Virus record (IMG/VR): IMGVR_UViG_3300037485_000466
Location: 1 to 37,056 of that record
Direction: 5' to 3' (one strand)
Origin: a virus
Length of the DNA stretch: 37,056 bases
The translations under genes were made by a program, and so were the position numbers. The notes beneath the pieces were generated by a model, which was not told where the DNA came from, made no database searches, and saw nothing but the letters and a program-made list of their open reading frames with translations. Shown piece after piece: positions 2,400 through 37,056 of this stretch (its first letter is position 1; each line of letters begins with the position of its first letter).

Positions 2400-4748
2400 A
2401 TGAGTGAGGATCGCACGAAGTTCATAGAGTATATAACTGGCTTGGCGACAGACAATGTCGGCGAGACAGCTTTAGTTGTGCGGCAGAAGCCGCAGCACGA
2501 CAGCGACGGCAACATGATATTCCACGCAGACGGCGCGCCGAAGGCGACCTTCCCTGCGTTTTTGCCAGAAAAGACCCGCATGAAAGAAGGCGAGGCATGG
2601 TATGTCAACACAGGCTCGTTCATCGTTGACCGCTTTGTAGACGGCAAGCCGTCCGCCAAGTCCAGCAACGTCGAGTATGTGTTGTTTATGATGCTGGATG
2701 ATGTCGGCACCAAGTCGAAAGAACCGCCGCTAGAGCCGACATGGGTGCTGGAAACAAGCGAAGGTTCGTTTCAGTGGGGCTACGCGTTCAGCGAACAGCC
2801 AAAGAAGGGCGACTTCTGCGCTGCCATCAAGGCGATTGCCGACGCAGGCTACACTGACCCCGGCGCGACTAACGCTGTCCGCAACTGCCGTATCCCCGGC
2901 AGCGTCAACCTGAAGCAAGGGCGCAATAACTTTCCTGCGCGGCTGGTATCGTTCAACCCTGAGCGTGAGTATACGCTGGATGAGATATGCAAGGCGCTTG
3001 ACGTGACGCCAGAGGAAGGCGACACAGCCGAATATAAAGCGGTGCAGTTGCGCGACACTGGGCTGGACAACGTCCTGACATGGCTTGCCGAAAAGAACCT
3101 AGTCCTAAGCACGCCCAACAATGACGGCTGGTGCGGCATCGTCTGCCCTAACCATCGCGAACACAGCGACGGCATGATAGAGGCGCGCTACAAACCGCTG
3201 GATCGTTCGTTCTGCTGCTATCATGGGCATTGCCAAGACTTAGACAGCCGCACCTTTCTTGATTGGGTAGCCAACAACGACGGCCCGAAGGTAACGCCGG
3301 GCTTGCGTGACGAACTAATCGCTGAACGTCTGGCGTCGATGTATGAGAAAATCGCACCGACCGAAGCCTTTCCTGATGAAGCCGCAGCGCGTGTGCGTGA
3401 GGTCGAGAAAAAAGAAGCAGGACGGCTGGAACAAAGCGAGTGGTTCGAGCGTTTCGCATACATACAGTCCGATGACTGCTATTTTGACATGGTGACGCGT
3501 CAAGAGATAGCCCGCAACGTCTTTAATGCGTTGTTCCGTCACGTTGACTGCCGCTCCATCCACAAGAAAACGCAGCGCGTGCAGTCGTCCATCTATTTTG
3601 ATGAGCGCCGTCAAGACCGCGGCGCGCCTGCGCTGTCGGCGGTGACGTTCGCCGCTGGCGATGACGTTCTGGTGACGCGCGACGGGTTGGTTTACGGCAA
3701 CCGCTGGACAAACGCCCGCCCTGATGTGTCGGGCAGTGACAAGATTGCAGACCATGACGTCGAGCCTTGGCTAGAGCATTGCCGCAATCTGGTGGCGGAT
3801 GACGCCGAGTTAGACCACATCCTTAACGCTATGGCGTTCAAGATACAGCGTCCCAACGTCAAGATTAACCATGCCATCCTGATTGGCGGCGATGAAGGCG
3901 CTGGTAAGGACAGTATGTTTCAGCCGTTCCTGTGGGCGCTTGGTGGTCAACACTGGCGCAATCGGTCAGTCATTGAGGCTGGCGGCTTAGACAGCCAGTG
4001 GGGTTATTCGCTGGAGGCTGAAGTTGTCATCCTAAACGAGTTGAAGGAGCCAGAGGCAAGAGAGCGCCGCGCTATGGCTAACAAACTGAAGCCGCTCATC
4101 GCTGCACCACCTGAAACGCTGTCGGTAAACCGCAAGGGGATGCACCCCTATGAGTTGGTCAACCGCCTGATGGTGATTGCTTACACGAACGATCCGCTGC
4201 CTATCACGCTGCCGACACAGGACCGTCGCTGGTTCTGCGTGTGGACGCGCGCGCCGCGTATGACAACGGCGGCGGCTAAGGCGCTGTGGGGCTGGTATGA
4301 GAACGGCGGCTATGAGAAGTGCGCCGCTTGGCTGCATCAGCGCGATGTGTCGGCGTTCAACCCTGCCGCTGCGCCTCCTGTCACCGAATGGAAGCTGAAC
4401 ATGGTTGAACATGGCATGAGCGTAGCGGAAAGCTATCTTGTGGACATGATGCGGACGCGGTCGGGCGTGTTCTCTGACGGCGTCATTGGTGGGCCTTTCC
4501 ACCGCATCTGTGACGCGCTGGCGGTCAATGTCCCTGCCGGTGTGAAGATACCGCAGGCGGCGCTCCTACACGCACTAAAAGAGGCTGGCTGGGTCGATAT
4601 GGGGCGGATCGGTTCAACTGAACTGCCGACCAAGAAACACATCTTTGTCGCGCCTGATCTTGTTAAGAAGCACAGCAAGTCAGAGTTGCGCCGCATGGCG
4701 GAAGAATTACCTAAGTCGGGCATCATGCCAAACTTAGGCAAGAATTGA
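2400..4748 (+). CDS. Primase-helicase (RepB-like AEP primase plus DUF5906/VapE-type SF3 ATPase)
   Basis: This 782-residue protein probably primes and unwinds DNA for the upstream polymerase. The N-terminal part resembles archaeo-eukaryotic (RepB-type) primases: a hydrophobic strand ending in MLDD (D100, D101), the FQWGY stretch near 125, and RIPGSVN at 164-170. A Cys/His cluster near residues 244-280 (CGIVCPNH then CCYHGHC) could bind zinc. The C-terminal half is a P-loop ATPase: Walker A GGDEGAGKDS at about 496-505, an acidic Walker B-like VVILNELKE strand, and an arginine-rich TQDRRWF segment typical of VapE/DUF5906 helicases. A good ribosome site (AGAGGAG) precedes the ATG. Fusion of primase and helicase in one chain is common in phages. 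It is the last gene of the replication arm; a strong terminator follows. Confidence 0.92.
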   Translation: MSEDRTKFIEYITGLATDNVGETALVVRQKPQHDSDGNMIFHADGAPKATFPAFLPEKTRMKEGEAWYVNTGSFIVDRFVDGKPSAKSSNVEYVLFMMLDDVGTKSKEPPLEPTWVLETSEGSFQWGYAFSEQPKKGDFCAAIKAIADAGYTDPGATNAVRNCRIPGSVNLKQGRNNFPARLVSFNPEREYTLDEICKALDVTPEEGDTAEYKAVQLRDTGLDNVLTWLAEKNLVLSTPNNDGWCGIVCPNHREHSDGMIEARYKPLDRSFCCYHGHCQDLDSRTFLDWVANNDGPKVTPGLRDELIAERLASMYEKIAPTEAFPDEAAARVREVEKKEAGRLEQSEWFERFAYIQSDDCYFDMVTRQEIARNVFNALFRHVDCRSIHKKTQRVQSSIYFDERRQDRGAPALSAVTFAAGDDVLVTRDGLVYGNRWTNARPDVSGSDKIADHDVEPWLEHCRNLVADDAELDHILNAMAFKIQRPNVKINHAILIGGDEGAGKDSMFQPFLWALGGQHWRNRSVIEAGGLDSQWGYSLEAEVVILNELKEPEARERRAMANKLKPLIAAPPETLSVNRKGMHPYELVNRLMVIAYTNDPLPITLPTQDRRWFCVWTRAPRMTTAAAKALWGWYENGGYEKCAAWLHQRDVSAFNPAAAPPVTEWKLNMVEHGMSVAESYLVDMMRTRSGVFSDGVIGGPFHRICDALAVNVPAGVKIPQAALLHALKEAGWVDMGRIGSTELPTKKHIFVAPDLVKKHSKSELRRMAEELPKSGIMPNLGKN

Positions 4749-4806
4749 CACGGGATAACGTGCGATGATATACGGATAAGGTCGGTGAAACTCCGCTGGC
4801 CTTTTT

Positions 4807-4842
4807 AAGCCCCCTGCGTCCTCACTCCGCAGGGGGCTTTTT
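4807..4842 (+). terminator. Intrinsic terminator ending the replication arm
   Basis: A perfect 12-bp GC-rich stem (4807-4818 with 4828-4839), a 9-base loop and five T residues (4838-4842) make a strong plus-strand terminator, 58 bases after the primase-helicase stop. A weaker stem with a T run (about 4780-4806) lies just before it. The stem overlaps the end of the convergent minus-strand gene at 4822-5019 and encodes part of that protein's tail. On the minus strand no U run follows, so it would terminate mainly the plus-strand transcript. Confidence 0.85.
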
Positions 4843-5019
4843 ATTGTCTGCTAGCGCAGCCTTTCTCTTTAGGTTCCTGTAGCGGCCTTCGACGGACGCA
4901 ATCGTCAGCCCCATTTGCTCCGCCATGTAGGATGGTCTTAGGCCATGCTCATAATAAGCCAGCAACTCTGCATCCATTTCAGGCGTCCACACGCGTCTAG
5001 GCCGTTTTACTATGGGCAT
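4822..5019 (-). CDS. Small Myb/SANT-like helix-turn-helix DNA-binding protein
   Basis: This 65-residue basic protein begins with a Pro/Arg-rich stretch and then WTPEMDAELL, the tryptophan-acidic pattern of Myb/SANT or GcrA-like domains. A turn and a recognition-like helix (MAEQMGLTIASVEGRYRNLK) follow. This size and pattern are typical of small phage DNA-binding proteins. It is the last gene of the early minus-strand arm and the only clear sequence-specific DNA-binding candidate outside the nucleases, so it could be a regulator of the divergent control region at 9.1-9.8 kb; that link is a guess. An AAAGGA ribosome site lies 7 bases upstream, and the start overlaps the previous stop (TAATG). 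Its last codons lie in the terminator stem of the opposite strand. Confidence 0.8.
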   Translation of the reverse strand: MPIVKRPRRVWTPEMDAELLAYYEHGLRPSYMAEQMGLTIASVEGRYRNLKRKAALADNKKPPAE

Positions 5020-5201
5020 TATTCGTCCTTTAATGCGGCTTCGGCATCTTCGATCAAGTCAATGGGCGGATAGCGCAGATAGCTTACATGGTCAGCGGTT
5101 ATTACGCCAAGAAACTCAAGATACTCCATCAGGCGGTAGGCCAAGGTTTCGGCTGCCCGTTCGGTGTATCTGTCGGGCAGTGTGTCGTCGTCATCAATCA
5201 T
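5019..5201 (-). CDS. Acidic small protein, unknown function
   Basis: This 60-residue protein is not recognised. It starts MIDDDD and is rich in Asp and Glu, with one long predicted helix region (RAAETLAYRLMEYLEFLGVI). Being small, acidic and early-expressed, it could be a host-protein inhibitor or DNA mimic, but nothing in the sequence proves this. It overlaps its upstream neighbour by 8 bases and its downstream neighbour by one base (TAATG), so the three are almost certainly translated together. Confidence 0.72.
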   Translation of the reverse strand: MIDDDDTLPDRYTERAAETLAYRLMEYLEFLGVITADHVSYLRYPPIDLIEDAEAALKDE

Positions 5202-5463
5202 TTGCTTTCCAATCTTTAGGGTAGGGGACTGTTCGATAGCTGGTCATGTGAAGTCTGCCATCTTCGCCCCAGTGTTCGCTTATGGTGGTTCCGTCATCGT
5301 TCAGCAAAACGGCTAGGTCGCCATAAATATGTAGCGGCTTTCCTGTCTTGGGGTCGATGCGGTAGCGTATGTCGGCTGCGTCTATGAACCCACCATCCGG
5401 CCAAGGGTCATCCCGCCACACTGGCCGTGCGGCGTGAACGTAGACTGGTATTTTGTCATTCAT
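5194..5463 (-). CDS. Conserved-looking early protein, unknown function
   Basis: This 89-residue soluble protein is not recognised. The middle (RYRIDPKTGKPLHIYGDLAV) reads like a beta-rich fold with a hairpin at DPKTGKP, followed by a second hairpin (LLNDDGTTISEHWGEDGRLH). There is no signal peptide and no metal-binding motif. The gene overlaps the next start by 8 bases, and its final codons (AAAGCAAATGATTGA) are a degenerate form of the stop/start module shared by other junctions in this arm. Confidence 0.72.
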   Translation of the reverse strand: MNDKIPVYVHAARPVWRDDPWPDGGFIDAADIRYRIDPKTGKPLHIYGDLAVLLNDDGTTISEHWGEDGRLHMTSYRTVPYPKDWKAND

Positions 5464-5620
5464 CGTCTTTCTCCGGTGTTAGAAGTGCAGTCAACACTAC
5501 TGCGTGAACTGTTCCGTTTGGTTTGCGAAACTCTGTATATCCATCAGGCATATCTTCGCGGGCGCAACCATTGAAGTCCCAGCCTTGCCGTTTACCAGCT
5601 AGTCTGTAAGTGGCTGTCAT
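5456..5620 (-). CDS. 54-residue early protein, unknown function
   Basis: This short frame (MTATYRLAGK... ending TPEKDDE) fills the gap between two longer genes with no leftover space. It overlaps the downstream start by 8 bases and its own ATG overlaps the upstream stop as ATGA. It has an AAGGA ribosome site supplied by the repeated junction module. The continuous coupling on both sides makes it a likely real gene. The pattern of Gly, Trp, Tyr and Phe suggests a small beta-rich fold. No function is recognised. Confidence 0.68.
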   Translation of the reverse strand: MTATYRLAGKRQGWDFNGCAREDMPDGYTEFRKPNGTVHAVVLTALLTPEKDDE

Positions 5621-5634
5621 TTGCTTTGTTCCTT
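5617..5634 (-). repeat. 18-bp coupled stop/RBS/start module, copy 1
   Basis: On the minus strand this reads AAGGAACAAAGCAAATGA. It encodes the last codons (EQSK, stop) of the upstream gene, supplies the AAGGA ribosome site and contains the next ATG overlapping the stop. Identical copies lie at 6061-6078 and 6330-6347. Confidence 0.85.
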
Positions 5635-5874
5635 GATGTAGTCGGCGCGTTTAACGCTGTCTGCCAACTGGCGCTGGTTGTAAGCCAAAAACCAATCCGC
5701 AATTTTGGTGCGTTCGATCTCCATGCCTTTGCGTAGGCCAGCTTCAGCAAGGCGCATCCATACAGTGCGATCTAAATCGCCTGTTAAATAACGCTGGCTA
5801 TCATCATTGGTCTGCCGTTCCGCTTGGATGGAACAGATAGTGCGGGCTGCTTTTGTAATTTGTTCATTTGTCAT
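5617..5874 (-). CDS. Early protein with ERxKIAxW helix, unknown function
   Basis: This 85-residue, mostly helical protein is not recognised by name. The C-terminal half (MEIERTKIADWFLAYNQ) resembles the corresponding part of the early protein at 6061-6333 (IAERKRIVAWLRSQ), and both end in KEQSK. The two may share a small helical domain that I know only as a recurring element of short phage proteins. It has its own ribosome site (AGGA, 7 bases from ATG) and overlaps the next start by 4 bases. Confidence 0.72.
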   Translation of the reverse strand: MTNEQITKAARTICSIQAERQTNDDSQRYLTGDLDRTVWMRLAEAGLRKGMEIERTKIADWFLAYNQRQLADSVKRADYIKEQSK

Positions 5875-5878
5875 TTTC

Positions 5879-6064
5879 TTATCCTAATCTAGTGATGAAT
5901 GTAACGCCGTTGATCGTGCGGCACTTGAACGACTTGCCGTTGCGTATCCCGTATTGCGACACGTTGCGGCTGGTGCGCTTGGCATCGCCGCGCTTGTCGG
6001 CTGGCATGGTGGCGCTCTCGCCTACGGCTAGCGTTCCCATAGGGTAAAACATCGGGCGGCTCAT
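5879..6064 (-). CDS. 61-residue basic early protein, unknown function
   Basis: The protein is small and basic, with a central DKRGDAKRTSRNVSQYG segment and a C-terminal strand pattern (GKSFKCRTINGVTFITRLG). The charge pattern would suit nucleic-acid binding, but no motif is decisive. The start overlaps the upstream stop as ATGA inside the repeated module; only 4 bases separate its stop from the next gene. Confidence 0.7.
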   Translation of the reverse strand: MSRPMFYPMGTLAVGESATMPADKRGDAKRTSRNVSQYGIRNGKSFKCRTINGVTFITRLG

Positions 6065-6078
6065 TTGCTTTGTTCCTT
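6061..6078 (-). repeat. 18-bp coupled stop/RBS/start module, copy 2
   Basis: This copy is identical to 5617-5634 and 6330-6347. It links the stop of the 90-residue gene to the start of the 61-residue gene. Confidence 0.85.
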
Positions 6079-6333
6079 TAAATGTTCGCCGGCTTCAATA
6101 TCATCGGCGGCTTCCTCGTAAATGTCGTCATGGTGGCCGCCTTGCGACCGCAGCCACGCCACAATCCGTTTGCGCTCCGCGATGGCCGCTTGGCCTGCCA
6201 ATGCGCGGTTGTGTTCGTCACAATATGCGTCGGCTTCTTCTTCGCTGTCGAACGTTATTTCAGGGTCGTTTACCAAATACCACCCCCGCCCGTCCTCTCT
6301 CCAAACCACCCATTGTTCTTGCAATTCGCTCAT
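6061..6333 (-). CDS. Acidic early protein with ERKRIVAWL helix, unknown function
   Basis: This 90-residue protein starts with a Trp-rich strand pattern (EQWVVWREDGRGWYLV). An acidic helix (SEEEADAYCDEHNRAL) follows, then the amphipathic IAERKRIVAWLRSQ segment and an acidic tail ending HLKEQSK. The second half resembles the neighbouring 85-residue protein. It is linked by 4-base ATGA overlaps at both ends, using two copies of the same 18-bp module. Confidence 0.72.
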   Translation of the reverse strand: MSELQEQWVVWREDGRGWYLVNDPEITFDSEEEADAYCDEHNRALAGQAAIAERKRIVAWLRSQGGHHDDIYEEAADDIEAGEHLKEQSK

Positions 6334-6347
6334 TTGCTTTGTTCCTT
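6330..6347 (-). repeat. 18-bp coupled stop/RBS/start module, copy 3
   Basis: This copy is identical to the modules at 5617-5634 and 6061-6078. It joins the 44-residue gene to the 90-residue gene. Confidence 0.85.
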
Positions 6348-6464
6348 TTCATCCCGTTTGCGCTCCGCAAAGGTCTTACCGTCCAGCCCGCGCAGCGGCC
6401 ATGCGCTGTCGGACGATACGCGATATTTGCGCCCCATTGGCGCGGCTTGTTGTGGCTTTATCAT
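6330..6464 (-). CDS. 44-residue early protein, unknown function
   Basis: This short frame (MIKPQQAAPMGRKYRV... ending RDEKEQSK) lies exactly between two larger genes, 4 bases after the previous stop and overlapping the next start by 4 bases. It has the same KEQSK end as two neighbours, which supports it being translated. A GGAG lies 10 bases before the ATG. It contains FAERKR, echoing the AERKR of the 90-residue protein, so it may be a shortened relative. Function is unknown. Confidence 0.65.
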   Translation of the reverse strand: MIKPQQAAPMGRKYRVSSDSAWPLRGLDGKTFAERKRDEKEQSK

Positions 6465-6468
6465 GGTC

Positions 6469-6810
6469 TCATATCTCCAATGTTGTCGATGGCTTGGCGC
6501 GCTTGTCGGTCAGCCTATCCAGCCAAAAGACTTGCTCAGGTCCATAGGACCGCGCGGCATGGTATTTGAACAACGCTAAGGCCAAGTCATCATATCCCTT
6601 GCGCTTGTGCGTGACGATTAGCGGTGACGGCGTCATGGCCTCTAGGTCAGTGCGCCGTGCGCGTATATTCTTGCGCTTGATGACTTCCTCTAGGTCGTGC
6701 AGCGTCAGGCGTAGGTTATGCTCGCGGTTAACGTGCTGAAGCACGGCGGATTTATCGCTGATATAGCCGCATAGGTGCTTTATCTGCTTTTTGACTGCAT
6801 GGTCTATCAT
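6469..6810 (-). CDS. Basic early protein, possible DNA-binding protein
   Basis: This is a 113-residue protein rich in Lys, Arg and His. The segment LRLTLHDLEEVIKRKNIRARR has the spacing of a helix-turn-helix followed by a basic patch, but I cannot assign a family. An open frame extends upstream to 6918, but I prefer the ATG at 6810. It overlaps the upstream stop as ATGA, has AAGGA upstream, and avoids a long overlap with the membrane-protein gene. Confidence 0.7.
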   Translation of the reverse strand: MIDHAVKKQIKHLCGYISDKSAVLQHVNREHNLRLTLHDLEEVIKRKNIRARRTDLEAMTPSPLIVTHKRKGYDDLALALFKYHAARSYGPEQVFWLDRLTDKRAKPSTTLEI

Positions 6811-7010
6811 GTGCGCTTGTCCTTTTTGACATATTTGCCAGTGTTTGGATCGCGCAGCACGGCGTTGCGTTTCCAATAAAGCAATTCGGACGTGTCGCGC
6901 ATCCATGCGTCCCGCCATTTGTCGCCATGCTTAACGGCTTCCCATAGCAAGAACAGCGTGACGCCCTGCGATATTAAGAATAATATGATTACGATTTGAT
7001 AATGGTCCAT
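6807..7010 (-). CDS. Small single-pass membrane protein
   Basis: This 67-residue protein has one hydrophobic segment at about residues 5-24 (QIVIILFLISQGVTLFLLW) followed by a highly charged tail ending KKDKRT. The positive charge after the helix suggests the N-terminus faces out and the tail faces the cytoplasm. It is one of three tiny membrane proteins in this early arm. Possible roles are superinfection exclusion or modification of the host envelope early in infection; there is no direct evidence. Confidence 0.72.
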   Translation of the reverse strand: MDHYQIVIILFLISQGVTLFLLWEAVKHGDKWRDAWMRDTSELLYWKRNAVLRDPNTGKYVKKDKRT

Positions 7011-7012
7011 GA

Positions 7013-7072
7013 TTAATCATCCAATAATAAGGTTAATAGAAATAGGGCGGCGCCGGCTAATAAAGCCGTCAT
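7013..7072 (-). CDS. 19-residue hydrophobic peptide (possible micro-gene)
   Basis: The frame encodes MTALLAGAALFLLTLLLDD, almost entirely a membrane helix. Its ATG overlaps the upstream stop as ATGA, the linkage used throughout this arm, and the next gene begins 3 bases beyond its stop. There is no clear ribosome site, so expression would depend on coupling. It could also be chance; without it there would be a 58-base gap in an otherwise packed operon. Confidence 0.4.
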   Translation of the reverse strand: MTALLAGAALFLLTLLLDD

Positions 7073-7311
7073 TTGACGCCGCGTAGGGCGTCTAATTCGT
7101 CCATTGCTTCGATCGCCTGTTGTTTCCAGATATCGCACCGGGCGTCTAATTCGTCTCGTTCATTGGTTACGTTTTCCAATTGCTCTTGAACGTCCAGCAG
7201 GGCGATCAGGCGCTCGGCTAGTACTAAGGCAAGCTCGTTGTCACTGGCGCGCCCGGCGTCGATCAATCCGCTATCCGATAGCATACGTAAATAGTTTCGA
7301 TCGTATGTCAT
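7069..7311 (-). CDS. Coiled-coil early protein, unknown function
   Basis: This 80-residue acidic protein is largely helical. The segment ERLIALLDVQEQLENVTNE, continuing to about residue 75, has regular hydrophobic spacing typical of a coiled coil, with one Cys. It may form a dimer or bind a partner. AAAGGA lies upstream of the ATG, and the previous gene ends 3 bases before. Confidence 0.7.
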   Translation of the reverse strand: MTYDRNYLRMLSDSGLIDAGRASDNELALVLAERLIALLDVQEQLENVTNERDELDARCDIWKQQAIEAMDELDALRGVK

Positions 7312-7314
7312 TGC

Positions 7315-7413
7315 TTACTGTCCTTTCAACGTGATAGTTATTGCATATATTGATAGGGCGCCGACGCCCCAAAAGAACGTTATGACGGCTATATGGGCTA
7401 ATTGCGCTAGCAT
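7315..7413 (-). CDS. 32-residue membrane peptide
   Basis: The frame encodes a hydrophobic peptide (MLAQLAHIAVITFFWGVGAL, then IYAITITLKGQ), probably one membrane helix. It fits exactly between two genes: 3 bases after the upstream stop, and 3 bases before the next ATG. The AAAGGACAG that encodes its last codons also acts as the next ribosome site. It lacks a strong ribosome site of its own. Confidence 0.52.
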   Translation of the reverse strand: MLAQLAHIAVITFFWGVGALSIYAITITLKGQ

Positions 7414-7416
7414 GGC

Positions 7417-7653
7417 TTAGGCGCCCTTCAGCATGGCTTTTAATTCGGCTTTGATCGATCGCGCCGTGTCGCCTTTCCATGTTGTGGTATTAGCCAAGAA
7501 ATAGCGCACGACGCTTTCTGCATCGTCATAATAGTACTTATCGCGGATCGATTGCAGGCTATGCATCGCGTCAAGATAAGGCACGGCACCAAAATAGGGT
7601 TTGGTCCAGTCGCGGCTAATATCGCGGGCGATCGTATCAATTGAACGGTTCAT
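7417..7653 (-). CDS. 78-residue early protein, unknown function
   Basis: This soluble, helical protein is rich in aromatic residues (RDWTKPYFGAVPYLDAM, YYYDDAESVVRYFLAN) and ends in a basic helix. It looks like a conserved short phage protein, but I cannot name a family. AAAGGA precedes the ATG. An unusual hairpin (7688-7739) lies just upstream in the transcript. Confidence 0.72.
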   Translation of the reverse strand: MNRSIDTIARDISRDWTKPYFGAVPYLDAMHSLQSIRDKYYYDDAESVVRYFLANTTTWKGDTARSIKAELKAMLKGA

Positions 7654-7687
7654 AATATATTGTCCTTTACTGTACTGTTGCTGGCAT

Positions 7688-7739
7688 TAGCGCCATAAAC
7701 GCCGCGCGCGGTAACGATCGCGCGGCTAATATGGCGCTA
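7688..7739 (-). other. Two-tier perfect hairpin between early genes
   Basis: An outer 10-bp perfect stem (7688-7697 with 7730-7739) encloses an inner 8-bp perfect GC-only stem (7701-7708 with 7719-7726) and a 10-base loop. The outer arm contains the TAG stop of the upstream gene. No U run follows, so it is not a standard terminator. It may be an RNA processing or stability element that sets different levels for genes on either side. Confidence 0.7.
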
Positions 7740-7901
7740 GCCGTCTTGCAGATAGCCGCATTTCTTGATCGCGACGCCGCGGTAAAGCATACCGCGCTTG
7801 AGAAAATCAAAGCGCCATTTGGCCTGCCCCTGCCTTAGATTAGGCCAAGCGATCTGTTGCCCGTCGTTCAAGATCGCCCAAGCTTTCCAATTCTTTTCCA
7901 T
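7737..7901 (-). CDS. 54-residue early protein, unknown function
   Basis: The frame (MEKNWKAWAILNDGQQIAWP... ending KKCGYLQDG) has an excellent ribosome site (AAGGGG about 9 bases before ATG) and lies 12 bases after the Gp88-like gene. It is basic with four Trp residues. Strong translation signals and tight packing support it as a gene. Its stop codon lies in the stem of the hairpin at 7688-7739. Confidence 0.68.
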   Translation of the reverse strand: MEKNWKAWAILNDGQQIAWPNLRQGQAKWRFDFLKRGMLYRGVAIKKCGYLQDG

Positions 7902-7913
7902 TATGCTTTCCCC

Positions 7914-8777
7914 TTATCCTACAACAAAGCCGGATTGATCGCGGCGCGCCTTGCCTTTAGCGTAAAGCGCAACGACGGCGCCTTTCGGATCTAAATGGCG
8001 GATATCAGTGTTATCGCCGTCAACGACGGGCAGGCCTAAAAACGTATCGCCATTGGCAAGCATAGCGTTAACGATCGCGCGATCGCGGAAAACGGCGGCG
8101 ATCCGCTCGCCATTAGCGACGGCTTTAGCGACAAACGGTTGATAAGCTTCGACACCGCTATAGCTAAAAGTTAGATCGTAATTAGCCGGCACGTTTTTAC
8201 GGTTAGCGATCTTGGTATAGTCATAGAATTGGATATCCGGCAACGCTTGCATAATGTTAGCATATGCATGGCCTATAGGTTCGTTTTCCCACCGGATATC
8301 GCTTGTACCGTTCAAGCGCACAATAAGCTTATAGCCTTTACGCTTGGCTTTAGCGCGCTCGCGGATCAATTCGTTCTGCAATTGCAACATGAATTGATCG
8401 CGGTATTGATTGAAGTATAGCGTCTTGCGTAAACGCGACAACATAACGCTATTCATGGCGCCGCGACCGGCGGTGAATAGGCACGCCTTTTCACAACCCG
8501 CCGTTTTCGCCATTGGACACAATTGAGTACCGCCTTGCTCGGCTGGCATTAGATAAAGGATAGCCGTCTTGATCCCGTATTGCTCGCCCTTGATCGTTTT
8601 CGCGTTTGTATCGATCCCTAAAAGCTTTTCGGGCAAGCGCGCGAATAGCGAGCGATTGTGATCGTTACCTAAAATCTGCAGTTGGATATCTAACGATAGC
8701 GCCGAAATATCATAAGCAAGCGCGGCGTCGACGGCTTTGTGATTATATGCGAACGGGTGATTGATTAAATGTATCAT
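7914..8777 (-). CDS. Gp88-family phage protein
   Basis: This 287-residue protein is the largest in the early minus-strand arm. It matches my memory of the phage Gp88 family (proteins containing GTQLCPMAKTAGCEKACLF and the later VRLNGTSDIRWE and QFYDYTK blocks). It has a C-x8-C-x3-C cluster at about residues 87-100 that could hold a metal or Fe-S centre. The family is common in phages, but its biochemical role is not established. Some members are labelled radical SAM-like; the canonical CxxxCxxC motif is not present here. The DNA is rich in GATC compared with the late genes. It is the second gene after the early promoter and so should be strongly expressed early. Confidence 0.8.
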   Translation of the reverse strand: MIHLINHPFAYNHKAVDAALAYDISALSLDIQLQILGNDHNRSLFARLPEKLLGIDTNAKTIKGEQYGIKTAILYLMPAEQGGTQLCPMAKTAGCEKACLFTAGRGAMNSVMLSRLRKTLYFNQYRDQFMLQLQNELIRERAKAKRKGYKLIVRLNGTSDIRWENEPIGHAYANIMQALPDIQFYDYTKIANRKNVPANYDLTFSYSGVEAYQPFVAKAVANGERIAAVFRDRAIVNAMLANGDTFLGLPVVDGDNTDIRHLDPKGAVVALYAKGKARRDQSGFVVG

Positions 8778-8802
8778 AATAGTTTCTCACTCTATTGATT
8801 GA

Positions 8803-9018
8803 TTAAATATGAATAATGCCCGTATCATCCATTAGCGTCGCATAATGGACCGGGCGCTCGTACAAGCCGGTAACGCCGTCGCGATAGATCGATATCCAGC
8901 GACCGGCGATCGCAAGCGCGACCGTAGCGCCATAAGGCACGCTAGCCGTGATAGGCCATATATCGATCAAGCTTTCACTATCCAGCGCGGCGTTTAACGT
9001 ATCGAAATAGTTTTGCAT
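8803..9018 (-). CDS. First gene of the early arm, unknown function
   Basis: This 71-residue protein (MQNYFDTLNAALDSES..., strand-rich C-terminal half with Trp, Tyr and Thr) has no recognised family. I chose the ATG at 9018, which follows GAGG with a 9-base gap. The frame stays open to a TTG at 9159, so a longer 118-residue form cannot be excluded, although it would run into the repeat region. With the ATG start the transcript from the promoter near 9231-9258 has a leader of about 200 bases. Confidence 0.55.
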   Translation of the reverse strand: MQNYFDTLNAALDSESLIDIWPITASVPYGATVALAIAGRWISIYRDGVTGLYERPVHYATLMDDTGIIHI

Positions 9019-9197
9019 TAGTTTTGCCTCATATTGTGTTGCAAACCGTCCGTCGCATAGTTTGAGGGTACTTACAATAGCTAAAATGCATCGGCGGAGA
9101 AAATAGTCGCGATCTAGGCTATGGAAAGGGGTGAAATAGCCTAGGGTAAAGCGACGCAATTCTGCGCGTCTGCGATCGATCTAGGCGATCTAGGCTA

Positions 9198-9220
9198 TTG
9201 GTTGTGTAGTCACTAACCAA
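9198..9220 (-). promoter_or_regulatory. 5' stem-loop at the start of the early transcript
   Basis: TTGGTT at 9198-9203 pairs with AACCAA at 9215-9220, and GTG/CAC extend the stem around a TAGT loop with one bulged T. It begins about 4 bases after the expected transcription start of the early minus-strand promoter, so it could be a 5' stability hairpin of the early mRNA or a protein-binding site. Confidence 0.5.
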
Positions 9221-9230
9221 AAACAATAAA

Positions 9231-9258
9231 ATTATATGGTATGTAGGGCATAACGCAA
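9231..9258 (-). promoter_or_regulatory. Early minus-strand sigma-70-type promoter
   Basis: On the minus strand a perfect -10 box TATAAT (9231-9236) lies 16 bases from a -35-like TTGCGT (9253-9258). The box is in the most AT-rich part of the region, at the centre of the mirror-image repeat array. It points toward the early gene arm ending at 4822. Transcription should start near 9224. Confidence 0.65.
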
Positions 9259-9286
9259 TAAGCCGCGTACGGTAACGCCGCGTTAT
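9250..9286. other. Hairpin at the symmetry centre of the repeat array
   Basis: ATAACGC at 9250-9256 pairs perfectly with GCGTTAT at 9280-9286. A smaller inverted pair, TAACG/CGTTA, lies within 9273-9285. It overlaps the -35 box of the early promoter and sits next to the centre of the repeat array. A structure here could serve origin melting or promoter control; only the symmetry is seen. Confidence 0.45.
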
Positions 9287-9400
9287 TTTCGCGCGACTTG
9301 AAAACGCATAGCCTAGATCGCCTAGATCGCCTAGACTTGACGTTAACGTAAAGCAATGACTCGGTTCATCGGCGACTTGCGATCGCATAGCCTAGATCGC

Positions 9401-9436
9401 CAATTGTGTTAACAATTGTAAACAGCATGGCCATGC
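9401..9436. promoter_or_regulatory. Two operator-like palindromes
   Basis: CAATTGT-GTTA-ACAATTG (9401-9418) is a perfect 7-4-7 inverted repeat, and GCATGGCCATGC (9425-9436) is a perfect 12-bp palindrome. They overlap the -35 box and the spacer of a possible plus-strand promoter (9416-9444). They directly follow the last CCTAGATCG repeat. This layout is typical of binding sites for dimeric repressors or activators. Confidence 0.5.
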
Positions 9437-9444
9437 AATATGTT
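9416..9444 (+). promoter_or_regulatory. Possible plus-strand promoter
   Basis: TTGTAA (9416-9421) and TATGTT (9439-9444) are separated by 17 bases, each matching 4 of 6 consensus bases. It is moderate by sequence alone. Its position, overlapped by two palindromes and upstream of an orphan terminator, is what makes it worth listing. Confidence 0.3.
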
Positions 9445-9450
9445 GCACCG

Positions 9451-9716
9451 CAGCATAGCCAGCTAGCCGATGTGTTTTTTACTAACATCGCTGTAAGCAG
9501 ACAGTGAAAGGCCAATCCAAAATCTGTAGCTAGAACAGAACCAGAACGCTGGCTGGCAGGAGGCCACCCCCCTAGGGCCGAGGGCCGCGTGACTGTCACG
9601 GGCACCGATCGCAAACAATTTTTTTTTATTTGTAAATGTTGCAAGTTAAGAGTAACCCGTTTTGCAACATGGCCGTCCCCGCTGTTGCCTATGGCATCAA
9701 GGGGCGGCCTTTTTTT
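9451..9716 (+). ncRNA. Possible untranslated RNA ending at an orphan terminator
   Basis: No convincing gene lies on the plus strand here, yet the stretch ends in a strong intrinsic terminator (9671-9716) and has a possible promoter at 9416-9444. It contains further self-complementary pieces: CGATGT/ACATCG (9468-9473 with 9485-9490) and CGTGAC-T-GTCACG (9588-9600). It could be a small phage RNA of roughly 265 bases, or a leader whose terminator is read through under antitermination. Its existence is inferred. Confidence 0.3.
9671..9716 (+). terminator. Orphan intrinsic terminator upstream of the late operon
   Basis: GGCCG(T)CCCC at 9671-9680 pairs with GGGGCGGCC at 9701-9709 (9 bp with one bulged T). 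An inner TTGCC/GGCA element follows, and seven T residues (9710-9716) come directly after the stem. This is a strong plus-strand terminator, although no plus-strand gene precedes it back to 4748. Confidence 0.8.
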
Positions 9717-9746
9717 ATTTTCAAAATCTCACTGCACCAAAGCCTG

Positions 9747-9775
9747 TTGCATACCAACCACAACTCGATTAGTAT
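9747..9775 (+). promoter_or_regulatory. Possible late promoter just before the terminase genes
   Basis: TTGCAT (9747-9752), 17 bases, TAGTAT (9770-9775) could be a weak sigma-70-type promoter located after the orphan terminator. The -35 box TTGCAT is the same as in the candidate promoter at 35514. Transcription would start within a few bases of the terminase small-subunit ATG, giving an almost leaderless mRNA. Confidence 0.3.
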
Positions 9776-9783
9776 GCGGCCCG

Positions 9784-10284
9784 ATGACTTTCTACTCACT
9801 GCCATTCACACCAGAACGGACGCAAGCCACCGAGGCGCGGCTAGAGGCAATCTATGAAGCCGCCCGCTACGGCTTGAAGGGTGACAGCCTTGCGATGGCG
9901 GCTGGATTGACCCCGCGGCAGTTCCGCGTGCTGGCCGACGCTGACCCGCTGGTGGAGATGGCTGAGATCAAAGGTCGCACTGATGGCGAGTTCACCGCGG
10001 CTAAAACTATGTACGAAGCGGCGCGCGATGGCGACGCTAAAGCTGCGCTCGACATATTGAAGCACAACCATGGTTGGGTAGCGAAACAGCAGATCGACGT
10101 GAACATTGACCAGCAGATCAGCATTACAGGCGCGCTCGAAAAGGCACAGCAGCGCGTCATCGAAGGGACGTATCTTGAGATACCCCAGCTAGAGGATAAC
10201 ACACCAAATGCAGCAGCCGATTTACAGCGCATCGGAAGAAATGGAATTGATGTCGAGGCTGTGGTCGCCGACGATCAAGGATGA
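9784..10284 (+). CDS. Terminase small subunit
   Basis: This 166-residue protein precedes the large terminase gene and has the usual layout of a small subunit. An N-terminal helix-turn-helix (about residues 15-55, GDSLAMAAGLTPRQFRVL) would recognise the packaging site. A helical oligomerisation part (EFTAAKTMYEAARDGDAKAALDILKHN) and a short C-terminal tail for contact with the large subunit follow. The frame is open upstream to 9589, but that part runs through the terminator hairpin and has a poor, Cys-rich translation, so I start at ATG 9784. No ribosome site is visible before it. The end overlaps the large-subunit start by 77 bases. Confidence 0.85.
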   Translation: MTFYSLPFTPERTQATEARLEAIYEAARYGLKGDSLAMAAGLTPRQFRVLADADPLVEMAEIKGRTDGEFTAAKTMYEAARDGDAKAALDILKHNHGWVAKQQIDVNIDQQISITGALEKAQQRVIEGTYLEIPQLEDNTPNAAADLQRIGRNGIDVEAVVADDQG

Positions 10285-11734
10285 CCCACTAGCTTTTGTA
10301 TTGCTGACATTCCCGTGGGGCGAAAAAGGTACGCCGCTGGAGCATTTCCAAGGACCGCGTAAATGGCAACGCGAAGTGCTAGGGACGCTACGCGACCACA
10401 TCAAGCAGAACAACGGCAAGATAGACTATGACACCATGCGGCTGGCGATTGCGTCAGGGCGCGGTATCGGCAAGTCGGCTTTAGTGTCATGGCTGACGAT
10501 ATGGATGCTGTCTACGCGCATTGGCAGCACTACCATCGTGTCGGCAAACTCTGAGGCGCAGTTACGCTCCGTCACATGGGCAGAAATTACCAAGTGGCTG
10601 GCGATGTCGCTAAACAGTCACTGGTTCGAGATAGCCGCCACACGCATCATGCCAGCCAAGTGGCTGACGGAACTGGTCGAGCGCGACCTGAAAAAAGGCA
10701 CGCGCTACTGGTCCGTCGAAGGGCGGCTATGGTCAGAAGAGAACCCTGACGCGTACGCAGGGGTTCACAATTTCGACGGTGTGCTGCTGATCTTCGACGA
10801 AGCCAGCGGTATACCAGACAGCATCTGGTCAGTGAGTGATGGTTTCTTCACAGAGAACACACCGCACCGCTTTCACGTCGCCTTTTCCAACCCGCGGCGT
10901 AACACTGGCTATTTCTACGAAACATTCCACAGCAAGCGGGCGTTCTGGCAGACGCGCAACATCGACGCGCGTGAAGTCGAGGGTACAGACAAAAACCTGT
11001 ACCAGCGCATTATCGACGAATATGGGCCAGACAGCTACCAAGCGCACGTCGAAGTGTTCGGTAAGTTCCCGTCTGAAGGTGACGATCAGTTCATCGGCGT
11101 CAATCTGGTAGACGATGCAATGGCACGACCCAAGTATAAGGACGAAACGGCACCCATCGCCATCGGTGTTGACCCTGCACGCTTCGGCGCTGACGCCACC
11201 GTCATCGCTGTACGGCAGGGCCGCGACATCATCGCCATCAAGCGGCTGAAAGGCGCTGACACGATGGAAGTGGTAGGGCACGTCATAGAAGCGATAGAGG
11301 AATACAAGCCGGCGCTGGTCGTCATCGACGAAGGTGGGCTAGGCGCGGGCATCGTAGACCGGCTGAAAGAGCAAAGGTACAAGATACGCGGCGTGAACTT
11401 CGGCAATAAGGCCATGAAGCAGATGATGTACGGCAACAAACGTGCTGAGATGTGGGGCGCCATGCGTGACTGGCTAAAGACGGCGCACATACCAGCGGAT
11501 CGGTTTCTGAAAACGGACCTGATAAGCCCGAAGATAAAGCCTGACAGCAAGGGGACGATCTTCCTCGAAAGCAAGAAGGACATGAAGTCGCGCGGGCTGG
11601 CCTCACCAGACGCAGCAGACGCCATTGCGGTGACGTTTGCATTTCCTATCGCACACCGCGAAGCACGCGTTGACAAGCGACGCATGAGCAGTTATTCTCC
11701 ACAGGGAATATCTACTTCTTGGATGGGTTCTTAG
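10208..11734 (+). CDS. Terminase large subunit (ATPase plus nuclease)
   Basis: This 508-residue packaging motor cuts concatemeric DNA and pumps it into the procapsid through the portal. The N-terminal ATPase shows Walker A ASGRGIGKS (82-90) and Walker B LLIFDEAS (D197, E198). The C-terminal RNase H-like nuclease shows acidic residues in GVDPARFGAD (D322), VVIDEGG (D374) and SPDAADA (D468, D471). All core residues are present. The start at 10208 keeps the YSASEEMELMSRLW N-terminus seen in related large subunits and has AGAGGA 11 bases upstream; internal ATGs at 10241 and 10250 are alternatives. Confidence 0.96.
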   Translation: MQQPIYSASEEMELMSRLWSPTIKDDPLAFVLLTFPWGEKGTPLEHFQGPRKWQREVLGTLRDHIKQNNGKIDYDTMRLAIASGRGIGKSALVSWLTIWMLSTRIGSTTIVSANSEAQLRSVTWAEITKWLAMSLNSHWFEIAATRIMPAKWLTELVERDLKKGTRYWSVEGRLWSEENPDAYAGVHNFDGVLLIFDEASGIPDSIWSVSDGFFTENTPHRFHVAFSNPRRNTGYFYETFHSKRAFWQTRNIDAREVEGTDKNLYQRIIDEYGPDSYQAHVEVFGKFPSEGDDQFIGVNLVDDAMARPKYKDETAPIAIGVDPARFGADATVIAVRQGRDIIAIKRLKGADTMEVVGHVIEAIEEYKPALVVIDEGGLGAGIVDRLKEQRYKIRGVNFGNKAMKQMMYGNKRAEMWGAMRDWLKTAHIPADRFLKTDLISPKIKPDSKGTIFLESKKDMKSRGLASPDAADAIAVTFAFPIAHREARVDKRRMSSYSPQGISTSWMGS

Positions 11735-29327: not shown

Positions 29328-31805
29328 ATGGCACCTGTAGACTATAAATTGAAAATCCGCGAGGCCCGCCGAAACGGGTATACTGACGCGGAAATCATTG
29401 CGTACTTAGCGGCCACCGATCCTAAAGTTAAGGATGCGGTAGACAGTGGCTATAAGCCTACTGAGATCATAAATTTTATCTCCCCACCCAAAAAGGCGGC
29501 ACCGCGTAACCGCGGCACAGGTATCGGTGCAATAGACACTACGTTAGATGTCATTAACGAAGCCCTGATTGGCATCCCTGAAGGCGCGTACAACGCCGCT
29601 GCCATGATTACAGACCCCATATCACGTTTGATTTTTGGCGAGAAGGCTGTGAAACAAGCGCAAGGGCAGCGCCAGCGCGCGGTTGATACGGTAGCGCGGA
29701 AGTTGACCACGCAGCCGCGCCCCGTCGCCCGCGAAATCGGACGCATGGTAGGCCCAGTTGCGGGGGTTACTCGCGCCGCTAGTATGGCTGCACCGGTACT
29801 GCAAAAAGCGCCTGTGGTGGGTAACGCGTTAGCGCGCATTGCTAAAGCTACAGCTTCCGGCGGCGTAGGTGGGGGACGTACCGCCGCGCAGTCAGCCAAA
29901 CTTACCCGTCTTCAGCGGGCAAAACAACTAGGTGAGCGCGTCGCCGGCGGCGCCATCTCCGGCGGTGCTACCGCAGCGTTGATGGACCAAGATGTTTTAG
30001 AGGGTGCGGGGTATGGTGCTGGCCTTCCCGTCGTGCTTAACGTGCTGAAGCGCCTTGGCAGCCCCGTGGTTGATTTTTTTCGTCCCGGTTTCACTATGGC
30101 TAAAGGTAAAGCTGCTGAAATCTTACGCCGCGCCTTTGCAGATAACCTTGACGCAGCCCGCGCGGAGTTTGCAAAGCTATCGCCGGACGATCAGCGCATG
30201 GCCGAGCAGTTTCTTGTGGACGTTAACATTGAGCCGCGCGCGGTGTTCGGCATTGGTAAGTTAGCGCAAGAACAGACTGAAACCGGCGCCAATGTCATGG
30301 GCCGTAAACTAAAAAGCGAAGCTGGAGCGCGCAAAACTCGTCTGGCTGAAGCCGCTGGCGGCGGTACAATGGAAGATATACGCGCTGCGGTGCGCGGCGA
30401 ACGGGCAGCGGTTACTGAAGATGTAGCGCCATTACGCGAAGAAATGTATCGCCGCGCCGGCTACGCCAGCGAGTTTGTTCCAGCTAAATTAGGTGAAGCC
30501 GCCGATTTAGAAAGGCTGGCCGCGCAGCAGTCAGGTCTTAACCGCCGCATGACTGAGGGAGCCATAGGCGCTGAAACGCGGCTGGGCCAGATGGACGATT
30601 TAGGTGATCCTTTTGCGGCGGAAGCGATTAACCGTCAACGCGGTATTGCGGGTGCCATGACGCAACGCGGCGAAAAGGCTGGGTTGACAGCCATAACTGC
30701 CCGCGAACGCGCCGGCGATATATTTGATGAAGTTGACAGCTTGGCTGCTGAAGGCATACGGCCTATGCGCGCTGCTGATCTTATAGTCTCGCTGCAACGC
30801 AAAATGGCAGACCCCGAAATTCTGCGCGGTTCGGTAGAAGAAGGCGCGATAAAAGGTGTCATCAGACAGCTTGAAAAAGCCACCGATGCAAACGGTATGC
30901 TCAACCCAAAAGCGTTGGGTAAAATTCGCCGCTCAGGTATCAACAACATTGTCAACAAACTGTCCATGCAAATGGGCGGCGTTCCATCTCGCACAGGTAC
31001 ACCTGAAGCAGCGCAAGGAACCGTGTTAGAACTCCGTTCGCTGATTGACGATACGCTGCGCCGCGGCGGCGCCGGCGATCTTGTAGATGAGTTTTTACAG
31101 CGGTCGGAACGCGGCTACGCCGCCGTTAACCGTCAGCAACTAGCGGGTGAAGCGTTCCGCCGGTATGAAGCCTCGCCGGAAACGGGCGCTGATTTTTTAA
31201 GACTGGTCGGCGGTAACGATCCAAAGGCAGTCTCTAAAATTATGGGCGGCGCCGCAGAAAACGAAACGATTGCGGGCGCATTTGCTGGCGATCCTAGACG
31301 TTTAAACGCACTTAAAATGACTGCTGACGAGTTAGAAAGACTTAACACGATAGAAGGTTTACGCCGTGAAGGGATCGGCGCCGCCGGTAAGGTTATGCTG
31401 CGCGAGACACCTAACTTTTTAACGCGCGGTTTTGGGTACCTGATGAACACGCCAGCAGCCCCTATCGCTGTAGCGGCTGAAGGCGCTCGCCGAGCGCAAA
31501 CCGGCTACCTTGCGCCGCGGGTAGAAAAAGAACTTGTTGATGCGTTTGTGTCTGCGCCGCGTATGGGCGAACTTATCAACACTTTTCCAACGCGCCAGAT
31601 AGTATCCGAGGGTGTTAGCCGCGTGCCGGCTGGTCTGCGTAACGTCATGGCGCAACAGTTTGGGCCGTCCCCTACACTTGGATCGCAATACGGCTTTCCT
31701 GAAATAGACCCTGACTCCGGTGAACCGCTGATAGATATTGATTTTTCAGAAGGCTACGCCGTGCCTATATACGGCAGAGTATCACGCAACAATATGAGAC
31801 GCTAA
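29328..31805 (+). CDS. Largest internal virion/ejection protein
   Basis: This 825-residue protein begins with two short helical repeats (REARRNGYTDAEIIAYLAAT and DSGYKPTEIINFI), a layout common at the start of phage ejection proteins. A long Ala/Gly-rich, partly amphipathic region that could insert in membranes follows (roughly residues 75-240), then helical charged segments. No lytic transglycosylase motif is visible. It is last of the ejection gene set and sits beside the lysis block. Confidence 0.8.
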   Translation: MAPVDYKLKIREARRNGYTDAEIIAYLAATDPKVKDAVDSGYKPTEIINFISPPKKAAPRNRGTGIGAIDTTLDVINEALIGIPEGAYNAAAMITDPISRLIFGEKAVKQAQGQRQRAVDTVARKLTTQPRPVAREIGRMVGPVAGVTRAASMAAPVLQKAPVVGNALARIAKATASGGVGGGRTAAQSAKLTRLQRAKQLGERVAGGAISGGATAALMDQDVLEGAGYGAGLPVVLNVLKRLGSPVVDFFRPGFTMAKGKAAEILRRAFADNLDAARAEFAKLSPDDQRMAEQFLVDVNIEPRAVFGIGKLAQEQTETGANVMGRKLKSEAGARKTRLAEAAGGGTMEDIRAAVRGERAAVTEDVAPLREEMYRRAGYASEFVPAKLGEAADLERLAAQQSGLNRRMTEGAIGAETRLGQMDDLGDPFAAEAINRQRGIAGAMTQRGEKAGLTAITARERAGDIFDEVDSLAAEGIRPMRAADLIVSLQRKMADPEILRGSVEEGAIKGVIRQLEKATDANGMLNPKALGKIRRSGINNIVNKLSMQMGGVPSRTGTPEAAQGTVLELRSLIDDTLRRGGAGDLVDEFLQRSERGYAAVNRQQLAGEAFRRYEASPETGADFLRLVGGNDPKAVSKIMGGAAENETIAGAFAGDPRRLNALKMTADELERLNTIEGLRREGIGAAGKVMLRETPNFLTRGFGYLMNTPAAPIAVAAEGARRAQTGYLAPRVEKELVDAFVSAPRMGELINTFPTRQIVSEGVSRVPAGLRNVMAQQFGPSPTLGSQYGFPEIDPDSGEPLIDIDFSEGYAVPIYGRVSRNNMRR

Positions 31806-36711: not shown

Positions 36712-37056
36712 ATGTCGAATATCACAACTTTTGGTGGCGCTGGTTTGCCATCCGTCCAATCTCTCTCCGGTGCGCTGCGCTCCATCCAGTCCGAAGTCGG
36801 GCCGGGCGGCACAGTCATCTTGAAGATGGACAAGACAGGCCATTGGGTTTTCGGTGCTGACCAGACCGAAGTAGAAGACGGCAGCCTGTGGGCCGCCAAT
36901 CCGTTCTCGTTCGTTCACGGCTATATTGCGTGGGGTAACGGCGAAGTGCTGGCTGAGAAGCTGGTTCCGGTGTCAGAGCCGCTGCCAGAGTTAGAACCAG
37001 CGCCATCAGGCGCAACGCGCGGATGGGAAATGCAGGTCGGCATGATGCTGGTTTGC
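36712..37056 (+). CDS. Putative ssDNA-binding protein, N-terminal part (continues at position 1)
   Basis: This is the first 115 codons of the gene that closes the circle; the last 51 bases repeat positions 1-51, so the joined protein has 220 residues. It starts MSNITTFGGAGLPSVQSLSG and has beta-strand alternation (GGTVILKMDKTGHWVFGADQ, SFVHGYIAWGNGEVL). A Pro/Glu linker follows, compatible with an OB-like fold but not diagnostic. The placement between DUF2800 and DNA polymerase is the main reason to propose ssDNA binding. Confidence 0.8.
   Translation, partial: MSNITTFGGAGLPSVQSLSGALRSIQSEVGPGGTVILKMDKTGHWVFGADQTEVEDGSLWAANPFSFVHGYIAWGNGEVLAEKLVPVSEPLPELEPAPSGATRGWEMQVGMMLVC
37006..37056. 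repeat. 51-bp terminal identity, right copy
   Basis: This stretch is identical to positions 1-51; see that entry. Removing one copy gives a circle of 37,005 bp with the wrapping gene intact. Confidence 0.93.

Follow-up and report, generated by a model that had tools for sequence, protein, structure and literature searches.

The window, by which we mean the whole stretch of DNA analysed, is a 37,056-bp virus record with a podovirus-like genome that encodes portal, head, tail and lysis genes. It ends in an exact 51-bp terminal direct repeat (1-51 and 37006-37056), and the record is therefore probably a complete genome, the alternative being an assembly overlap. The genome encodes a family A DNA polymerase (PolA; 421-2388), a primase-helicase of 782 amino acids (2400-4748, plus strand) and a terminase (10208-11734). 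An intergenic stretch of about 0.77 kb separates a group of leftward small early genes from the rightward terminase block, and it is here that we find the repeat array studied in this work. The array starts at 9109, about 4.5 kb from the end of the primase-helicase gene at 4748, and lies about 400 bp upstream of the start codon of the small terminase gene (TerS) at 9784. A terminator-like hairpin followed by a T-run (9664-9716, plus strand) separates the array from the terminase genes; it was read from the sequence and did not score in the scan for sigma-70-like sites described below. This hairpin overlaps the sole blastn match (51 bp, 90%, MT840004) that the region gave against the phage collection, and a different terminator-like hairpin occupies the equivalent place in one relative (L012, about 3976-4034). 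Also nearby is a gene for a GP88 family protein (PF17338; 7914-8777, minus strand) with a cysteine cluster, which is found in some relatives only (G009/L020, L036). Rfam and tRNA scans of the window gave no match, and a scan of bacterial genomes for the host matched only metagenome-assembled contigs with mixed labels.

We identified six exact copies of the 9-bp unit CCTAGATCG, all within 9110-9399 and none elsewhere in the record. They lie at 9110, 9177 and 9186 on the minus strand and at 9312, 9321 and 9391 on the plus strand. Two perfect inverted repeats, one of 22 bp (9177-9198/9308-9329, centre 9253) and one of 15 bp (9109-9123/9386-9400, centre 9254.5), are nested and concentric, and an ATAG points towards the centre in all four clusters. 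The original prediction had described each of these elements and expected the 9-mer to be nearly exclusive to the region, and our analysis bears this out. The longest perfect inverted repeat in 150 Markov simulations of 500 bp was at most 14 bp, as against the 22 bp observed, and the commonest 9-mer reached at most five copies in 2000 such simulations, as against six.

In the register common to the relatives described below, the unit reads ATNGCCTA (AT-N-GCCTA-R) with a period of 9 bp, and eight matches to it lie within 9115-9394. An inner left pair (9177-9198, minus strand; units 9182-9189 and 9191-9198) and an inner right triplet (9308-9334, plus strand; units at 9308, 9317 and 9326) flank a central AT-rich spacer of 109 bp (9199-9307), which is a candidate unwinding element. 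The outer iterons, ATAGCCTA(G) on both sides (9115-9122, minus strand; 9387-9394, plus strand), are located inside the 15-bp inverted repeat. One extra ATAGCCTA(G) iteron in the left half (9136-9143, plus strand) is directed outward and breaks the mirror; the predicted symmetry thus holds for the nested inverted repeats and is incomplete for the array as a whole. The hairpin predicted at the centre is at chance level (z = -0.56). Nor does the cumulative GC skew, which had been suggested as a check, show a clear switch at 9.25 kb beyond the effect of gene orientation, with which it is confounded, so that it is uninformative here.

We collected 80 relatives by terminase similarity and hundreds more loci with four primase queries. 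CCTAGATCG is missing from most of the 80 terminase-related relatives, and loss of the array in most of them, as a literal search for the 9-mer would suggest, was rejected as misleading: the unit has been exchanged. Where the gene order is shared, relatives have an array in the equivalent place, upstream of the terminase, built from other units. Repeats absent from relatives that keep the gene order had been named as an outcome that would speak against the prediction; one such relative (L007), with a TerL 99% identical and a TerS closely similar to those of the window, does lack CCTAGATCG, but it has an equivalent array of GGACGTCAT units, which also occur in L029, L034, L038 and L047. Other relatives use CTGGGTCAT, TTTGGGTCAT, TGTGGGTCAT, TGTGGACAAT, TGTGAGTCAT, TTAGGCTAT, TTAGGCAAT and further units. 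Read from one end, the majority of units follow the form AT-N-5mer, in which the 5-bp core is exchanged among relatives (GCCTA, ACGTC, ACCCA, GTCCA, GCCGA and others). DnaA boxes were considered and rejected, as TTGTCCACA in the GTCCA types is DnaA-box-like but is a member of the exchangeable iteron series.

The layout of the array recurs among relatives. Inward-facing iteron pairs around an AT-rich spacer, defined by an iteron step of 8-11 bp and a spacer of 76-119 bp, were detected in 86 of 123 records, compared with 14 of 123 for an outward-facing control, and the iterons of a pair are about 9 bp apart. The facing layout was found in 25 of 28 records with the core GCCTA, 39 of 46 with ACCCA and 22 of 26 with GTCCA (86 of 100 in total). 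It was found in none of the 23 records of the other five core types (ACGTC, ACCTA, GCCGA, GCCCA and ACAAC), for which one fixed register was tried; some arrays of these types are nearly one-directional (for example, L222-L224). The 86 spacers have a mean AT content of 64%, compared with 52% in the surrounding region. The spacer can be homologous between core types, as suggested by a pair of relatives (L252, ACCCA, and L290, GTCCA) whose spacers are 81% identical and whose iterons differ.

The primase-helicase comprises an N-terminal RepB_primase domain (PF16793, E = 2.9e-5, at the cut-off), a DUF5906 helicase domain of the D5/SF3 type (PF19263, E = 2.4e-9) and a predicted C-terminal winged helix. 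The fusion of a primase domain to a D5/SF3 helicase and the predicted C-terminal winged-helix DNA-binding domain are both hallmarks of initiators of the P4 alpha/SaPI PriRep kind. In an AlphaFold model of the last 150 residues, the winged helix has the topology H-E-H-H-E-wing-E, with a pLDDT of about 78-89 over residues 40-130 of the model. This model puts residues 738-743 in the loop that joins the two strands of the wing; the helix at the usual recognition-helix position (719-729) is nearly constant. The closest solved structures to the full-length model, whose pTM of 0.38 leaves the domain arrangement uncertain, are NrS-1 (6k9c), poxvirus D5/E5 and SaPI5 PriRep1 (7pds); the model also matches a PrimPol domain (S-2L PrimPol, 6zp9), and these matches are consistent with the Pfam domains. 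For the C-terminal domain, VIA matched many winged-helix domains (best Z 6.0), Foldseek returned winged-helix proteins only, with no significant specific match, and a PDB sequence search gave no meaningful match. These comparisons favour the winged-helix fold as such and point to no particular family; the P4 origin-binding domain is not among the Foldseek and VIA matches listed, an absence that is not evidence of difference.

The primase-helicases of 15 close relatives are 86-95% identical, but close to the C terminus they contain a short segment (GRIGSTELPTKKH in the window) that varies together with the iteron. Across proteins of this similarity, the loop GRIGS accompanies GCCTA, GRLNSK accompanies ACGTC and GRVHS accompanies ACCCA. 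The wing of the window protein is RIGSTELPT (codons 736-744; 4605-4631, plus strand), in which residues 737, 738, 740, 741 and 743 covary with the iteron core. We scanned all 392 variable primase columns without bias, comparing residue difference with core difference in 2551 pairs drawn from 153 non-redundant records with a clear array, each pair being at least 85% identical over residues 1-715 (the backbone). The best-scoring columns were 738, 740, 737, 734 and 741. Cores were assigned automatically, and 21 of the 153 records fall outside the ten main core types, some of them probably by miscalling; the phi of residue 738 was 0.76 with raw cores and 0.85 after merging of strand-shifted names (TGGGT, TTGTC and GGTCA). 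The probability that two cores differ was 0.99 when residue 738 differed and 0.16 when it was the same. Best-column values for other proteins were 0.20 for TerS, 0.18 for TerL and 0.26 for PolA, and for the small early proteins 0.17 (orf6469), 0.19 (orf5879) and 0.44 (orf7069, 39 records only). A cognate regulator among the leftward early genes nearest the array was also considered and rejected, as these small ORFs are mosaic and none tracks the unit. Because of the covariation, we conclude on sequence grounds that iterons and primase wing are partners, and direct contact would be the simplest reason for it.

The correspondence extends to single bases. In cores that fit [AG]CCNA, residue 738 corresponds to the fourth base as follows: glycine with T in 30 of 30 records, alanine with C in 42 of 44, histidine with C in all three and aspartate with G in all five. 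Ten loop residues predicted the held-out core in 122 of 131 cases, compared with 105 of 131 for the other 715 residues; when neighbours with a backbone identity of at least 90% were barred, the loop was correct in 100 of 130 cases and the backbone in 68 of 131. Between proteins with at least 92% backbone identity and different cores, the wings are 46% identical, compared with 93% for the recognition helix and 94% for the backbone; wings of same-core pairs are 92% identical. The closest such pair (L198 and L209) has backbones 98.3% identical, and both wings and iterons differ. The pattern is also present in a deposited circular genome with a primase 53% identical (MW202483.1), where an array of ATGTAAAC units lies between the leftward block and the terminase and the wing differs too (GMCFAPELSTKRH).

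Core switching has occurred repeatedly. At least 30 core changes map to the tree of primase backbones, with matching changes in the wing. Using independent pairs, that is, pairs without a common branch on this tree, we found that the association of GCCTA with G738 was supported by nine and opposed by none of ten pairs (p about 0.004). Associations of GTCCA with K738 and of ACGTC with N738 were each supported by five pairs and opposed by none, and that of ACCCA with A738 or H738 was supported by 12 and opposed by about one.

Given these analyses, we propose, with a probability of roughly 85%, that the array is the replication origin of the phage, bound by the C-terminal winged helix of its own primase-helicase, the wing selecting the core and the layout serving the loading of facing hexamers. 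The original prediction had offered a bidirectional origin or a looping divergent operator; the former is well supported by the covariation with the primase-helicase, the symmetric placement around an AT-rich spacer and the recurrence of this layout. Specifically, the ATNGCCTA units would be the iterons to which the winged helix binds. Wing residues 736-744 would select the 5-bp core, which varies, and the constant helix would probably recognize the AT side, which does not. We infer this division of roles because the variable wing tracks the variable core. One protomer may occupy each 9-bp unit, and the inward-facing pairs may seed the assembly of two SF3 hexamers that flank the AT-rich spacer; the spacer would be melted so that bidirectional synthesis begins. 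The inward-facing layout would fit two facing rings and bidirectional replication. In related phages, the iteron sequence is exchanged as a block along with a handful of wing residues; spacer, recognition helix and the remainder of the genome are retained. That a few wing residues, and not the recognition helix, set the 5-bp core, and that at least 30 specificity changes arose in this large environmental podovirus lineage, with origin-directed nucleases, satellites or superinfecting relatives as possible drivers, would amount to a rapidly evolvable origin code; for this proposal we see about even odds.

The array might instead be mainly a transcriptional operator, at which the primase-helicase or another phage protein represses or autoregulates a divergent early promoter while replication begins elsewhere. 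We consider this unlikely, although the array does lie between the leftward early and the rightward late blocks, and a covarying DNA-binding domain would also be expected if the primase-helicase only repressed a promoter at this place. The perfect TATAAT promoter predicted at the centre exists as a motif on the minus strand (9232-9237), but across the 86 equivalent spacers TATAAT occurs at chance level (seven per strand, compared with 8.2 expected). The sigma-70-like sites in 4600-10300 do not exceed background, and the array contains none of the sites listed. Moreover, the protein that tracks the iterons is the primase-helicase and not a dedicated repressor, and the accessory genes adjoining the array are mosaic and do not follow the iteron type. 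With the TATAAT and the central hairpin both at chance level and no adjoining regulator gene tracking the repeats, the looping divergent operator finds no footing in these data.

The position of the array just upstream of TerS could also suggest a DNA-packaging (pac/cos) site for the small terminase encoded there. We regard this as very improbable, since no TerS column tracks the core (best phi 0.20, as above), the relative with the 99% identical TerL and closely similar TerS has a different array, and an apparent terminator separates the array from TerS. Least credible of all is a role as a parS-like partition site or as a site for a host protein. Short repeats in clusters do typify centromeres and the sites of host regulators, but there is no ParA/ParB family match among the window proteins scanned (a subset of the ORFs), and one would not expect a protein of the host to follow the wing of a phage primase.

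A replication origin of the P4 alpha or SaPI Rep type, with a self-loading initiator and two facing hexamers, is by analogy the best explanation of the array. P4 alpha combines primase, SF3-type helicase and a winged-helix domain through which it binds short repeats at its origin (PMC4234260). Its primase domain is of the TOPRIM type (PMC4234260), whereas that of the window protein is RepB_primase-like, with a match to the PrimPol AEP structure 6zp9; the window protein may thus work like P4 alpha while standing outside the P4 alpha family in the strict sense. For P4, we found in the literature searched no account of repeat specificity being exchanged at the level of residues across hundreds of relatives. 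In the SaPI Rep helicases, iteron recognition resides in the C-terminal domain, and binding appears to involve two hexamers (PMC7581432). SaPI Rep/PriRep and SCCmec Cch2 resemble the proposed initiator in their self-loading helicase, C-terminal iteron recognition and two proposed hexamers (PMC7581432), and the closest solved structures include SaPI5 PriRep1. SaPI origins, however, lie directly downstream of rep, whereas the array of the window is remote from the initiator gene and beside the terminase, in a lineage of 37-kb phages with their own PolA. NrS-1 PrimPol-helicase and poxvirus D5/E5, the best full-length structural matches, share the DUF5906/D5-type helicase fold, but their C-terminal parts show no specific match to the wing domain of the window protein.

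The closest precedent for the exchange itself is RepA_N of the Vibrio cholerae PLE, in which the initiator DNA-binding domain and the origin iterons covary and are exchanged, and in which selection for this exchange is believed to come from an origin-directed nuclease, Odn (PMC8263062). The PLE system has two specificity groups, whole-domain exchange and semi-palindromic iterons of roughly 30 bp, whereas the lineage studied here has more than eight specificities, 9-bp units and changes in few wing residues. The array is thus explained in outline as a novel form of the iteron origins of primase-helicase initiators, and what is unusual about it is the repeated exchange of a 5-bp specificity via few wing residues, not the symmetry. 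We found no prior report of such a residue-level origin code in a literature search made mostly without subscription papers. The relatives amount to a natural data set: well over 100 initiators are paired with their matching origins, and few residues suffice to read off a 5-bp specificity. These pairs allow direct tests of how origin specificity evolves, of whether a winged-helix domain can recognize sequence mainly via its wing, and of satellites, origin-directed nucleases and exclusion between relatives as candidate drivers of switching. They also yield a rule by which the primase wing alone can point to the origin in many phage genomes that lack annotation.

Several further repeats were observed. 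A TTTGAGGGTA-like element directly to the left of the array (9059-9068) recurs in L007, L041 and L054, with several copies in the latter two. A second cluster of repeated 9-mers (count 4) at about 30901-31500 lies inside the ORF at 29328-31805 and probably represents coding repeats. Finally, a distant clade (L352-L403; GMC[NA]SRS) has a different wing type, GMCNSRSSKTKKH, and has arrays of ACNGCCTA along with ACNGCAGG/ACNGCAGA repeats in high copy number, downstream of the primase.
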